DNA from: Pseudomonadota bacterium
GTDB taxonomy: Bacteria > Desulfobacterota > Syntrophia > Syntrophales > JADFWA01
Assembly (NCBI GenBank): GCA_030610915.1
Contig: JAUWQS010000064.1
Span: 1 to 7,728, forward strand
Direction: 5' to 3'
DNA: 7,728 nucleotides
Shown: positions 1-7,728 of the stretch, one piece after another
Layout of the letters: every line of letters begins with the position of its first letter
How positions within the stretch are numbered: position 1 is the stretch's first letter
The notes under the pieces: model-generated
Database searches by the model: none
Told to the model about the DNA's origin: nothing
Seen by the model: the letters and a program-made list of their open reading frames with translations, nothing else
Translations under genes and position numbers: made by a program

Positions 1-171
1 TAGATAGACTGAAGGCTGAAGACTGTTAGTAAAAGCGGGAATACTGCACACTTTGAAGCCATGTTTGATTCAAAAATCTGCTGTTTCTCTGCCAAAGTGC
101 GGCAATCGTGTTTTTCGGGTACCTTCAGCCTTCAGCCTAAATAGCTTCAGCCTGACTACGTGAGTAGTTAC
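1..171. repeat. Palindromic intergenic element, left end outside the window
   Basis: The right end is TGAGTAGTTAC at 161-171. Read on the minus strand this is GTAACTACTCA, the same terminus as the complete 112-bp element at 6494-6605, and similarity continues for about 27 bases (CGTAGTCAGG here against GGTTGTCAGG there). Just inside, 7-bp units GAAGGCT and GAAGACT (11-24) face inverted TTCAGCC units (124-137, and one more at 146-152), so the two sides can pair. The matching left terminus is not seen and probably lies just before base 1. The core between the arms (about 25-120) shows no convincing gene. This is inferred to be a non-autonomous mobile or structural repeat; no transposase is visible. 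Confidence 0.5.
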
Positions 172-3690: not shown

Positions 3691-3770
3691 GCAAAATATT
3701 GGTAATAGCTCAATAAATAGGGGCAAACTCCGGTATGTAAAAGTGATTGTGAATCTTAGCCATTCACGGC

Positions 3771-3899
3771 TTGAAATTAGAAATTAGAAATTTGGGAGAA
3801 ATGAAACGAATTTACGAGTTGACAGGCTTCGGCGTGAGCTCAGTCGAGTCGTACAAAAGCACGAAGGCCGAGTTTCCAATTTCTATTTTCTAATTTCAA
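3771..3899 (+). repeat. Internally deleted S23/four-helix-bundle cassette, copy A, with heptad arms
   Basis: Inverted 22-bp arms: TTGAAATTAGAAATTAGAAA (from 3771) and TCTATTTTCTAATTTCAA (ending 3899). GAA recurs at 3773, 3780 and 3787, and TTC at 3874, 3881, 3888 and 3895, always 7 bp apart. The first 51 bases align without gaps to 4046-4096 (about 43 identical), and the last 49 align to 4183-4231 (43 identical). Only the centre differs: 29 bases here against 86 there. Both therefore derive from one ancestral cassette by different internal deletions. Confidence 0.7.
3801..3893 (+). pseudogene. Remnant of S23 / four-helix-bundle protein gene (30 codons)
   Basis: The open frame encodes a 30-aa peptide beginning MKRIYEL and ending YKSTKAEFPISIF. 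GGGAGAA sits just before the ATG like a ribosome-binding site. The start matches the MKQVYEL start of the neighbouring remnant at 4076. The body of the protein is missing and the stop codon lies in the right heptad arm. The short mid-part (about 3822-3850) is not recognised. It is very unlikely to make a functional four-helix bundle. Confidence 0.5.
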
Positions 3900-3980
3900 T
3901 ATTCAGTAAACGCTTACCGTGGATCGAGACCAACACTTTAAAAATGTAATCCCCAATTTATTGAGCTGATACAAATATTT

Positions 3981-4008: not shown

Positions 4009-4038
4009 CTTGTTCCCAAGCCGGAGCTTGGGAACAAG
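4009..4038. repeat. REP-like perfect hairpin
   Basis: CTTGTTCCCAAGC (4009-4021) pairs perfectly with GCTTGGGAACAAG (4026-4038) around the loop CGGA: 13 pairs and a 4-base loop. A diverged relative with the same GTTC...GCTGGAGC...GAAC plan is at 6701-6738. There is no T-run, so it is a repeat or mRNA-stability hairpin rather than a terminator. Confidence 0.7.
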
Positions 4039-4045
4039 AGAAAAC

Positions 4046-4231
4046 TTGAAATTGGAAAGTAGAAATTTGAGAGAGATGAAGCAAGTTTATGAGTTGGATG
4101 TTTACGAACCGGCAGAAGCGTTATCAGATATAACCTGGCACGACTTTGGTAGGTGGAACAAAATCGAATGTGTTCATCAACAGTACAAAAGCATTAAGGT
4201 CCAATTTCCAATTTCTAATTTCTAATTTCAA
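4046..4231 (+). repeat. Internally deleted S23/four-helix-bundle cassette, copy B, with heptad arms
   Basis: The arms begin with TTGAAATT (4046) and end with AATTTCAA (4231); 21 of the outer 23 bases pair when the C at 4045 and G at 4232 are included. GAA occurs at 4048, 4055 and 4062, and TTC at 4206, 4213, 4220 and 4227, all in 7-bp phase. It is homologous over both ends to copy A. Its right arm ends only 12 bases before the gspM start, so it supplies most of the gspM leader. Confidence 0.7.
4076..4225 (+). pseudogene. Remnant of S23 (23S rRNA intervening-sequence-type) four-helix-bundle protein gene
   Basis: A 49-aa product starting at ATG 4076; an in-frame TTG at 4010 lies in a hairpin and is rejected. 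Residues 1-29, MKQVYELDVYEPAEALSD then ITWHDFGRWNK, match the first helix region of the S23/IVP four-helix-bundle family, whose members are normally about 115-130 aa and often start with a [KR]-x-YEL-x-VYK-LAE-x-LS pattern (family recollection). The rest of the bundle is missing. The sequence jumps to a tail YKSIKVQFPISNF whose last residues are translated from the heptad arm. S23 proteins occur in insertions in 23S rRNA genes and as many free-standing copies in some bacteria. The frame is intact but the protein is far too short. Confidence 0.6.
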
Positions 4232-6430: not shown

Positions 6431-6453
6431 GGGTTCACAGGTTCAGTGTTCGA

Positions 6454-6493
6454 GAATGAACATCGAACGTCCAACATCGAATGTTGAATGGGG
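6454..6493. repeat. 7-bp-periodic GAA array (left arm)
   Basis: GAA, or CAA once, occurs at 6458, 6465, 6472, 6479 and 6486, exactly 7 bp apart, with variable spacers such as CATC, CGTC and TGTT. It begins about 27 bp after the gspC stop. It faces the complementary TTC array at 6656-6693 in inverted orientation. Confidence 0.7.
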
Positions 6494-6605
6494 GTAACTA
6501 CTCAGGTTGTCAGGTTCAAGATTAAAAGAGTTCCAATCAAATCAATTCTGTAACTTCCTTCAACCCTTGAACCCTGAACCCTGAACCGTGAACCTGAGTA
6601 GTTAC
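6494..6605. mobile_element. Palindromic element with perfect 13-bp ends (112 bp)
   Basis: Termini GTAACTACTCAGG (6494-6506) and CCTGAGTAGTTAC (6593-6605) are a perfect 13-bp inverted pair. Inside the right end lies a 7-bp GAACCCT-type array, with GAA at 6569, 6576, 6583 and 6590. The terminus is shared with the element ending at 171. It has no coding capacity. The flanks (gaatgggg and tgtttttc) do not form a target duplication. It sits between the two inverted arms 6454-6493 and 6656-6693, so it may be nested in an older element. Confidence 0.65.
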
Positions 6606-6655
6606 TGTTTTTCATTCGATTTTAGAATAATTTGAGGAGCGGAACGACATCATTA

Positions 6656-6693
6656 TTCGACGTTCGACGTTCAATGTTCGATGTTGAATGTTC
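6656..6693. repeat. 7-bp-periodic TTC array (right arm)
   Basis: TTC occurs at 6656, 6663, 6670, 6677 and 6691, with TTG at 6684, all in exact 7-bp phase with spacers GACG, AATG and GATG. This is the reverse-complement counterpart of the GAA array at 6454-6493. The 50 bp before it (6606-6655) hold nothing recognisable. Confidence 0.7.
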
Positions 6694-6700
6694 ATCTTTG

Positions 6701-6738: not shown

Positions 6739-6769
6739 AAACCATGCCCCGATTTCTGAACCCTGAACC

Positions 6770-6860
6770 GTATCAGCTCAATAAATCAGGGTAGGGGAGG
6801 TTTTAACCTCCCAATGTGGGCGACTAAAGTCGCCCCTACCCCTATTTATTGAGCTATTAC
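6770..6860. mobile_element. MITE-like element, copy 3 (91 bp), with perfect 8-bp target duplication
   Basis: Ends GTATCAGCTCAATAAATCAG (6770) and CTATTTATTGAGCTATTAC (6860) are inverted repeats, 24 of 28 outer bases pairing when GGGTAGGGG/CCCCTACCCC is included. The core is two perfect hairpins, GGGAGGTT/AACCTCCC (6795-6812) and GGGCGACT/AGTCGCCC (6818-6835), bracketed by GTAGGGG/CCCCTAC. The direct repeat CCTGAACC flanks the element on both sides (6762-6769 and 6861-6868). Because GAACCCT motifs are common nearby, a chance contribution to this duplication cannot be excluded. The element ends 10 bases before the exeA start codon. Confidence 0.8.
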
Positions 6861-6870
6861 CCTGAACCCT

Positions 6871-7611
6871 ATGTATACATCCTATTTCGGTCTGAGAGAA
6901 AATCCGTTTAATTTAACGCCTGATCCCAGGTATCTCTTTCTGAGTCCGCAGCACAGTGAAGCGCTTAACCATCTTATTTACGGGATAAACGAGAAGAAGG
7001 GCTTTATTATGATTACCGGGGGGATTGGAACCGGCAAGACCACTATCTGCAGGTCACTTCTTTCCACCCTGGATCAATCGGTTGTCAGCGCCCTGATCTT
7101 TAATCCCTCCATCTCAGAGATTGAGCTTCTGGCGATTATCAATCAGGAATTCAAAATTAAATCGAGAAGAGGACGACCGACAAAAAGGGGTTACGTTGAT
7201 GCCCTGAATAAATTCCTTCTGAAGAACTTTGCTGCCGGTAGGAATGCGGTTTTGCTGATCGATGAGGCGCAAAATCTCTCCCTCAATGTTCTGGAACAAA
7301 TCCGGATGCTTTCAAACCTTGAAACCGAAACGGAAAAGCTGCTCCAGATAGTGCTCCTCGGTCAACCGGAACTGCGGGAACTTTTAGCATCACCATCATT
7401 AAAGCAATTGAGTGAGAGGATTACCGTAAGGTATAATCTCAAACCCCTTGATCGGAAAGATATACAGAATTATATAGAACACAGACTGACAGTGGCCGGT
7501 GAAAATAGTGGAAGGTTAAAATTTTCAAATGGGGCATGCAAAACTATCTATGAATACTCAAAGGGAATCCCGCGGCGCATCAACGCCATGGGAATGACAA
7601 CCGAAAATTGA
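6871..7611 (+). pseudogene. exeA: ExeA/GspA-type AAA+ ATPase, truncated by an insertion sequence
   Basis: The N-terminus MYTSYFGLRENPFNLTPDPR is characteristic of ExeA/GspA ATPases. Walker A is GGIGTGKTT (50-58), Walker B is AVLLIDEAQ (126-134), the sensor region is LLGQPELRELL (162-172), and GIPRRINA (232-239) is the lid motif. ExeA with GspB/ExeB helps the secretin GspD assemble through peptidoglycan. Full proteins continue with the rest of the AAA+ lid, a membrane helix and often a periplasmic peptidoglycan-binding domain (Aeromonas ExeA is roughly 550 aa). Here homology stops at residue 239; seven residues (MGMTTEN) and the TGA come from the inserted element at about 7589. No ribosome-binding site is visible: the ten bases before ATG are the target duplication of the MITE. 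The ATPase core could still be expressed, but membrane and cell-wall functions should be lost. Confidence 0.85.
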
Positions 7612-7728
7612 CCACCTGTGCTAACCCAAAATTGACCACCCTGAGCAGTGGTTATAATTATGAATGATTAAGGAAAATCATCCAGACTTTCCTTATTGTC
7701 ATCAGCAGGTGAAACGTAGGGAGCCCGT
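7589..7728. mobile_element. Terminus of an insertion sequence, probably IS21 family (partial)
   Basis: exeA homology ends at 7588 and new sequence starts with TG (TGGGAATGACAACC). Two 18-bp direct repeats follow, AACCGAAAATTGACCACC (7599-7616) and AACCCAAAATTGACCACC (7623-7640), one mismatch, 24 bp apart. TG/CA termini with several direct repeats inside the end are typical of IS21-family elements, where they bind the IstA transposase. No istA or istB sequence is recognisable in the remaining 88 bp. One open frame begins at 7664 (MIKENHPDFPYC...) and runs off the window, but I do not recognise it. Family assignment is inference. Confidence 0.55.

Follow-up and report, generated by a model that had tools for sequence, protein, structure and literature searches.

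The window, by which we refer to the entire stretch of 7,728 nucleotides analyzed here, harbors a type II secretion operon comprising gspK, gspL, gspM, gspN, and gspC together with an exeA-like ATPase gene, and the nearest relatives found are metagenome genomes (GspL identity 65% at locus L001, 60% at L002, and 59% at L005). An Rfam search produced no match in the window. The initial annotation of this DNA had reported that a trinucleotide, GAA (or TTC on the opposite arm), recurs every 7 bp in several arrays of otherwise different sequence, and all of the 33 trinucleotide positions that it named were correct, with 0 mismatches. The phasing also exceeded that of shuffled sequence: six GAA/TTC runs of at least three at 7 bp were counted in the window, a number reached in 0 of 500 dinucleotide shuffles (mean 0.246, maximum 2), and the other spacings from 4 to 14 bp yielded between zero and two runs each.

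The arrays of the window belong to discrete elements, several of which are nested. At the left, a GGCTGAA-type element (11..171, unstranded) bears arrays at 11-25 and 120-137 and a right end, GTGAGTAGTTAC, at 160-171, its left end not being seen; elements with identical ends and unit in genome G005 have 8-bp duplications. Farther along, an outer element (3702..3972, unstranded) with the ends GTAATAGCTCAATAAAT / ATTTATTGAGCTGATAC, whose flanking 8-mers AAATATTG / AAATATTT are alike at 7/8 bases, encloses a GAAATTR-type element on the + strand (3756..3917) with the outer ends TTAGCCATTCACGGC / CAGTAAACGCTTAC and arms at 3773-3793 and 3873-3897. Of the S23 gene described below, this enclosed element retains the opening codons (ATGAAACGAATTTACGAGTTG) and the final bases, with ~40 other bases between them, and the RNA fold of the element has a z score of -3.96. 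A second GAAATTR-type element (4048..4229, +) carries arms at 4048-4068 and 4205-4229 around a 48-aa remnant (ATG at 4079), in which the first ~30 S23 codons are joined to the DNA of the last ~12, the latter in another frame. Nested arrays fill the junction between gspC and exeA, where the left half of an outermost array (GGGTTCACAGGTTCAGTG; 6431..6448, +) directly follows the gspC stop codon and the right half (CTGAACCCTGAACC) is found in two pieces, the first at 6756..6769 (+) and the second at 6861..6870 (+), abutting the exeA start codon at 6871. The two pieces are separated by a AGCTCAATAAAT-ended element (6770..6860, unstranded), which is inserted into the outermost array and exhibits a perfect 8-bp target duplication, CCTGAACC. 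Inside the outermost array lie the left (6458..6490, +) and right (6656..6696, +) arms of an AACATCG-type element, and between these arms a nested element (6494..6605, +) with the ends GTAACTACTCAGG / CCTGAGTAGTTAC and GGTTCAR-type arms at 6505-6520 and 6562-6594, at which no target duplication was observed (1/8 bases match). The region 6448-6700 folds as a single long stem (z -5.94). The facing arrays of the same type at 3773/3874, 4048/4206, and 6458/6656 are genuine; the array at 6569-6592, inside the outer 6458/6656 pair, belongs to the separate nested element with its own ends, which corrects the initial annotation.

Other features of the window were recorded alongside these elements. A further family, with ends GTA(A/T)YAGYTCAATAAAT, is represented at 315-541, 3702-3972, and 6770-6860, with 8-bp duplications (8/8 and 7/8) at two of the three copies; the word AGCTCAATAAAT gave only five matches, in four of nine relatives. 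The gspL gene contains an in-frame insert of CCCCCTTTA-type repeats (KIPPLPPLLKGGKERG) at 2587-2640, and the GspL match extends over 1578 nt in the window, 1542 in L001, and 1524 in L002. The exeA-like gene is shortened (7600-7728), its similarity to the seven relatives having the gene stopping at residue 240 of 246, after which repeated AAAATTGACCACC words follow that are perhaps the end of an insertion sequence. An open frame at 588-1088 exhibits GGGGGCFIATAAYGS and a hydrophobic tail, with no Pfam match at E<=1.

Extending the analysis to other genomes, we found that the sequence rule of the initial annotation, an invariant GAA with free intervening bases, had to be rejected: AAC and further units, as well as periods other than 7 bp, proved equally common or commoner. 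In contig C1 (1.2 Mb) of a relative, genome G005, the trinucleotides phased at 7 bp in runs of at least four were AAC (91 runs), AAA (29), and GAA (27); GAA phased at 8 bp gave a further 22 runs, periods of 6 and 9 bp occur as well, and units such as GGGGTCA, GGCACAG, TTTAGGG, TCGTAAA, and AAGGATTC do not follow the GAA rule at all. The constant is instead the architecture: a tandem unit of any sequence, usually 7 bp long (in some cases 6, 8, or 9), in two inverted arms around an S23 gene. Tandem Repeats Finder, after merging of overlapping rows, detected 289 arrays of period 5-10 in this contig, 130 of them of period 7, compared with 28 and 1, respectively, in third-order Markov sequence of equal length. 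Among 159 neighboring array pairs at most 900 bp apart, 37 had the same unit in inverted and 6 in direct orientation, the corresponding values for random partner arrays being 2.6% and 2.4%. The expectation that inverted arrays would have their spacers in common was therefore borne out for units of any sequence, and with same-unit facing arrays so far above chance (37/159), the proposal that the arrays are one kind of system held. That the periodicity arises by chance or from faulty assembly might be considered in view of the several sources that are metagenome-assembled genomes; this reading, to which we assign a practically negligible probability, is refuted by the shuffles and by the Markov control, and the same anatomy recurs on complete plasmids of named cyanobacteria. 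The arrays are mostly intergenic (197/289, intergenic DNA making up 15.6% of the contig), and they adjoin start codons and often stop codons too. Two further observations concern individual arrays: 23 GAACCCT-type units form an uninterrupted array at L005:18991-19147, and a 9-bp family, AAGTGCCTA / ACTTTAGGC, occurs in G005:C1 (e.g., 216807-217333) in many inverted pairs, one of which surrounds an S23 gene.

The lead to a protein came from short frames of the window that resembled the starts of four-helix-bundle proteins and pointed to the family PF05635 (23S_rRNA_IVP, S23). Genes of this family were detected in 12/13 relatives, with up to 16 per genome, and in 0/14 control genomes. The flanks of 27 S23 genes revealed mostly a tandem array on both sides, the second copy inverted, with a unit specific to the locus. 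The initial annotation had anticipated a protein whose genomic presence tracks the arrays, and PF05635 has this property: at least five GAA-heptad matches were present in 20/47 genomes with the gene and in 1/32 without it (79 genomes, PF05635 presence at E<=0.001), at least one match being found in 8/32 genomes without the gene. In these 79 genomes, which are related to each other and hence not independent, the number of S23 genes correlated with GAA-heptad counts (Spearman 0.56) and also with counts of the reversed AAG heptads (Spearman 0.39), at least five of which occurred in 23/47 genomes with a PF05635 match versus 4/32 without. The whole-genome search for GAANNNN heptads thus confirmed an association with the gene but not the part assigned to GAA, given that AAG heptads track the gene too, which makes heptads in general, and not this trinucleotide, the linked feature.

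For a quantitative comparison, 108 S23 loci were collected (27 of 30 from the first relatives, 29 new ones from a wider search, 40 more fetched from the places of that search, and 12 of 45 plasmid records), with three partial hits (L059, L074, L075) and one Avd locus kept as a contrast (L209) set aside; 100 of the 108 were counted, seven being dropped because contig ends cut them and one because of its score. The upstream flank of each gene was aligned by Smith-Waterman with the reverse-complemented downstream flank, which gave a mean score of 24.3 with the gene's own partner and 11.7 with swapped partners (0/2000 permutations). The own flank scored above the 99th percentile of swapped pairs at 47/100 loci and was the best of all partners at 52/100. 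A score of at least 17 was reached by 81/100 S23 loci and, with identical geometry, by 19 of 364 control ORFs of 90-220 aa, all taken from one genome (G005:C1); at that threshold, 19/100 S23 loci gave no clear arm signal. The dominant array period was 7 at 70 loci, 8 at 20, 9 at 7, 6 at 2, and 4 at 1, and strong 7-bp periodicity on both flanks was observed at 51/100 loci as opposed to 12/364 control ORFs. Strong periodicity of 6-9 bp was present at 76/100 loci, a figure without a control set, and where they could be measured, the arms had medians of 4.1 and 4.3 units. The 12 plasmid loci come from named organisms, eleven cyanobacteria and Gemmatirosa. At one of them, in Pseudanabaena (L206), the arrays are direct instead of inverted and the S23 gene lies between cas6 and cas4; the S23 genes of L199 and L204 likewise lie amid CRISPR-associated genes.

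The S23 genes are under purifying selection. Among 28 pairs above 0.7 identity, 12 of which have saturated synonymous sites, dN/dS was between 0.06 and 0.24 in 15 of the 16 pairs with finite dS and 0.52 in the remaining one. The basic charge of the proteins was rejected as a sign of nucleic-acid binding, as their isoelectric point was not distinct from that of small control ORFs (9.02 vs 8.99). Separately, an insert with the ends CTGCCCTGTTAAATA / TATTTAACAGGGTAA was observed to split S23 genes at conserved codons around N|IAEG in L262 and L263 (G005), L265 (G046), and L264 (G013). Frames in the inserts of L263 and L265 match GIY-YIG (PF01541; E 1e-11 and 1e-15), L264 has a short version lacking this frame, and the insert looks like a parasite homing on the S23 gene.

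The short copies of the window, which lack a complete gene, are explained by comparison with such full loci. The AACATCG type encloses S23 genes in G005 (C1:213900-214640 and 19660-20400), and at three other places of the same contig (797180, 798070, and 800350) the start of an S23 gene of this type is joined to its stop. Likewise, in genome G002, two loci (L259 and L261) have one internal deletion in common, and an intact relative (L049) is present in the same genome. For the GAAATTR type, 12 homologues of the window ORF at 4010-4225 were found, 43-100 aa long and in no case a full-length S23 protein (search range about 39-124 aa), and their common N-terminus, searched in 198 genomes, matched in four. 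Pfam gave no match with the window remnants, and five of the 12 homologues likewise lacked a PF05635 match, so that the remnants could be identified only through their full-length parent: locus L307 in G085 harbors a 119-aa frame with a PF05635 match between GAAATTR arms as in the window, and has truncated siblings (L303, L309, and L311). When aligned to L307, the window elements at 4048-4229 and 3756-3917 retain both element ends and miss the middle; compared directly, the window remnant and L239 agreed only weakly (9/23 residues). The window arrays at 3773-3897 and 4048-4229 are, in consequence, internal-deletion derivatives of an S23-bearing element.

The unit differs by locus yet follows the lineage of the S23 protein. 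Whole-flank similarity between genomes was 21.8 at protein identities of at least 0.7 (n=23), 15.8 at 0.6-0.7 (n=40), and ~10.5 below 0.5, with a Mantel r of 0.246 (0/2000 permutations), whereas the wrong-orientation control was trendless (Spearman 0.004). Because one high-scoring pair, L213/L218, has its host flanks in common, the comparison was then restricted to the arm segments of 81 loci with arms in different genomes, a unit being counted as common at a score of at least 15. A common unit was found in 85% of pairs at identities of at least 0.7 (n=20), 48% at 0.6-0.7 (n=29), 16% at 0.5-0.6 (n=67), and 2-4% below, and only one of the 49 pairs at identities of at least 0.6 lay at a homologous host site, so that the same type of protein carries the same unit at unrelated places. 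In pairs with saturated dS, the unit was common in 10/11 by arms (11 of the 12 being comparable) and in 5/12 by whole flanks. The arm match of L202, from a Scytonema plasmid, with L218 and L222, from the phylum of G005, crosses phyla, although the right flanks of these loci are not alike along their entire length.

Evidence for insertion was provided by three sites at which filled and empty alleles coexist on near-identical Nostocales plasmid backbones (90-95% identical). Site 1 is filled in Calothrix brevissima (L198) and empty in Nostoc carneum (L250), Tolypothrix (L251), and Aulosira (L252), which are 90-92% identical, with 11 bp of the empty sequence missing from the filled allele. Site A is filled in L203, L256, and L257 and empty in L205, L253, L254, L255, and L258, the filled alleles retaining the stop codon upstream and the ATG downstream of the element; site B is filled in L205 and empty in the seven others (L203, L253-L258). 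All three lie at stop-start junctions of co-oriented genes, and none of the three exhibits an 8-bp duplication. In addition, one orthologous host junction carries different S23 elements in two genomes (L213 and L218), with proteins 40% identical and differing units. In the type II secretion operon itself, the match gap between gspL and gspM is 10 bp in L001 and 556 bp in the window, and the gspN-gspC junction holds a complete S23 element of about 450 bp in L008 compared with about 25 bp in L003 and L006. At the gspC-exeA junction, arrays precede the start codon in L001, L003, L005, L006, L008, and the window, and most of these also have one after the stop codon; the unit is alike in some genomes and different in L001 and L006. 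As a side observation, the short gspL-gspM junction of L001 (3476-3485) reads AGTAGTTACA and resembles a leftover of a GTAACTACT end. These alleles bear on the idea that the arrays are regulatory or protein-binding sites of the host, found between genes by chance, as in the proposal for TAACTGA in Beggiatoaceae. The mostly intergenic location (197/289 arrays in G005:C1) and the proximity to start and often stop codons would fit such sites; empty alleles at 90-95% identity, differing units at one orthologous junction, and deletion derivatives do not, and we hold this reading to be very unlikely.

The outer ends of the elements allow a comparison with known transposons. The GTAACTACTCAGG-end families, which continue with varying units (GGTTCAC, GGCACAA, GGCTGAA), were detected in 12/79 genomes, and all 12 have a PF05635 match (47/79 overall; Fisher p 0.001). 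Among 21 GTAACTACTCAGG elements, including a few with doubtful or two alternative ends, eight had 8-bp duplications (at least 7/8 bases), compared with 0.7% for swapped flanks; in two of these eight (G005 C1:541054 and 548251) the flanks are identical, so that a single event may underlie both. Of those with a full S23 gene, L285 has a duplication (7/8) and L049 and L230 have none. The GAAATTR family, with GTAAGCGTTCACGG ends, exhibits duplications in 3/17 rows, among which a few ends are similarly ambiguous, including the full-length L307 (swapped flanks 0/20,000), and in the AACATCG family 8-bp duplications were found in 0/19. Ends beginning with GTAA and 8-bp target duplications are traits of IS66. 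In G052, similar ends (GTAACTTCTCACG on both sides) accompany an IS66 copy, and in G085 GTAACTATTCAGG lies near another. No IS66 transposase was found in the draft genomes G001, G002, G009, and G013, G002 being rich in elements, and no IS66 transposase gene was present within the window's elements or the others inspected, which measure 0.1-0.5 kb and contain an S23 frame or no frame. Several features of MITEs were observed: short length, inverted ends, no transposase gene, and many copies. A rival explanation would regard S23 as a passenger in ordinary MITEs of one or more DDE transposons, the arrays growing by replication slippage and the arms being matched by hairpin-templated correction, with no protein needed to read them. 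Slippage and quasi-palindrome correction are established processes and count in favor of this explanation, as do the 8-bp duplications and GTAA ends of some families and the GTAACTTCTCACG sequences on both sides of the G052 copy. The purifying selection on S23, the concentration of arms at S23 genes relative to control ORFs, and the agreement between unit and S23 lineage where host sites are unrelated, including 10/11 of the saturated-dS pairs with arms, argue against a mere passenger, and we consider it improbable.

The strongest rival to our explanation is an action at the RNA level, in which the elements would be free-standing relatives of the 23S rRNA intervening sequences: the transcribed arms would pair into a long stem, which would either be an RNase III substrate or hide the insert within the transcript of the operon, with S23 binding that RNA. 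S23 is the ORF of rRNA intervening sequences (IVS), and in the IVS of Coxiella a terminal stem of 28 bp is accompanied by three heptamers in tandem upstream of the S23 start codon (PMC4990558). The S23 genes stand predominantly in sense orientation between co-oriented genes, since among 70 loci with close ORFs on both sides both neighbors are co-oriented in 55, both opposed in 3, and mixed in 12, and the arms of the window fold as stems (z -2.5 to -5.9). On the other hand, mismatches of the G-U type are not favored over those of the A-C type in the arms (127 vs 139 at 72 loci), so that the pairing of the arms looks conserved at the level of DNA, and selection for an RNA stem was rejected on this ground. 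No element was located in rRNA, those of the window being in the secretion operon, and a set of 12, drawn from the 22 loci whose flanks are least coding, gave no match to rRNA or to any other Rfam family. Taken together, we judge this rival unlikely.

The explanation that we prefer, and regard as probable, sees in the arrays the subterminal arms, inverted to each other, of small mobile elements carrying S23, which would be mobilized by a transposase acting at their tips and bound at the arms by S23. It builds on the anatomy of the elements, their insertion, the derivation of the short copies from S23-bearing parents, and the linkage of unit and protein observed above. The element class is widespread and about 0.1-0.5 kb in size, and each family has its own unit. 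In a complete element, a PF05635 gene stands between two mutually inverted tandem arrays built from a single 6-9 bp unit, with an outer tip beyond each array; copies bearing S23 lie mostly between co-oriented genes, and many copies, including those of the window, are short and lack the gene. The transposase would act in trans at the outer tips and would be IS66-like in the families with GTAA ends and 8-bp duplications. The arms themselves may be a protein-binding site, at which a pentameric S23 ring would bind the tandem arm as DNA and help to pair or protect the ends, array and protein coevolving. The Xanthomonas S23 protein is a toroidal homopentamer (PMC4990558), and the PDB relatives 2gsc and 2rld have five chains each. 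The combination of a five-chain ring with about four units per arm suggests one unit per subunit; that each S23 subunit reads one unit of the array is possible yet doubtful, and we are much more confident that the arrays form the arms of mobile elements with S23 or of derivatives of such elements. TRAP, to which an S23 ring on its array may be likened, reads spaced triplets.

More broadly, we tentatively suggest a class of mobile elements defined by format, in which an S23 ring would read arrays whose word drifts, and which would place the arrays presented here in one group with the heptamers known from cyanobacteria and Xanthomonas and with the intervening sequences of rRNA, while giving PF05635 a function. 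Joint change of array and protein would allow the word to drift rapidly. If this is right, PF05635, so far without a function, gains one that can be tested, some of the sequence between genes in these bacteria finds an explanation, and the rRNA intervening sequences can be viewed as special cases of an intergenic mobile element; some 80 natural protein-array pairs would be at hand for reading out the drift of sequence recognition.

Among known systems, the rRNA intervening sequences resemble the elements described here in their S23/PF05635 ORF or its remnant, their size of about 0.4 kb, and their stem-capable terminal inverted repeats (PMC4990558). The Coxiella IVS, proposed to be a former mobile element, has tandem GACAGAT heptamers before its ORF, in a number that depends on the strain (PMC4990558). 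In the available sections of that source, the heptamers are not connected to an array class, and in the open-licence PMC literature, mostly at the level of titles and abstracts, S23 genes are linked to tandem-array arms only through these heptamers. Unlike the rRNA intervening sequences, the present elements are intergenic in protein operons, occur in many copies with family-specific units, and have empty alleles. With IS66-type MITEs they have in common short length, inverted GTAA ends, an 8-bp duplication in some families, and an origin by internal deletion; they differ in that S23 and tandem arms take the place of a transposase in the parents, and in that the AACATCG family and the three cyanobacterial insertions lack the duplication.

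The REP/RAYT systems are likewise small inverted intergenic elements next to a small gene. RAYT (Y1) genes in these genomes, however, are accompanied by longer single inverted sequences without short tandem arrays (by eye, in the readable flanks), and a RAYT/Y1 transposase was not supported as the partner of the arrays. RAYT-like genes at L142, L143, L144, L147, L152, L158, and L165 have inverted flanks of their own (e.g., GGGGTCAGGTCTTGC) and apparently form a separate system. Avd of diversity-generating retroelements has a related four-helix-bundle fold, and L048 matches bAvd (E 1.4e-12), whereas no reverse transcriptase is annotated beside the gene at the 12 plasmid S23 loci; a search in phages matched only Avd-like proteins (8 records). 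The TAACTGA repeats of Beggiatoaceae are similar in being intergenic heptamers near start codons and dissimilar in having one unit that is almost always direct (169 sets, one indirect; PMC4679880). In Xanthomonas, GGGAATC forms 70 and 75 convergent (inverted) pairs in two genomes, mostly of four-unit arrays; these repeats have been called simple sequence repeats or G-quadruplex sites, 'generally' unlinked to mobile elements, and Calothrix is named among the cyanobacteria with heptanucleotide repeats (PMC4692102). Both the Xanthomonas and the cyanobacterial heptamers resemble the present arrays in their 7-bp units and intergenic location, and the solved S23 structure 2gsc is from X. campestris. 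The cyanobacterial heptanucleotide repeats go by the name STRR. Heptamer arrays have long been catalogued as simple repeats, and S23 genes have been annotated in many genomes without a function; the data presented here join both.
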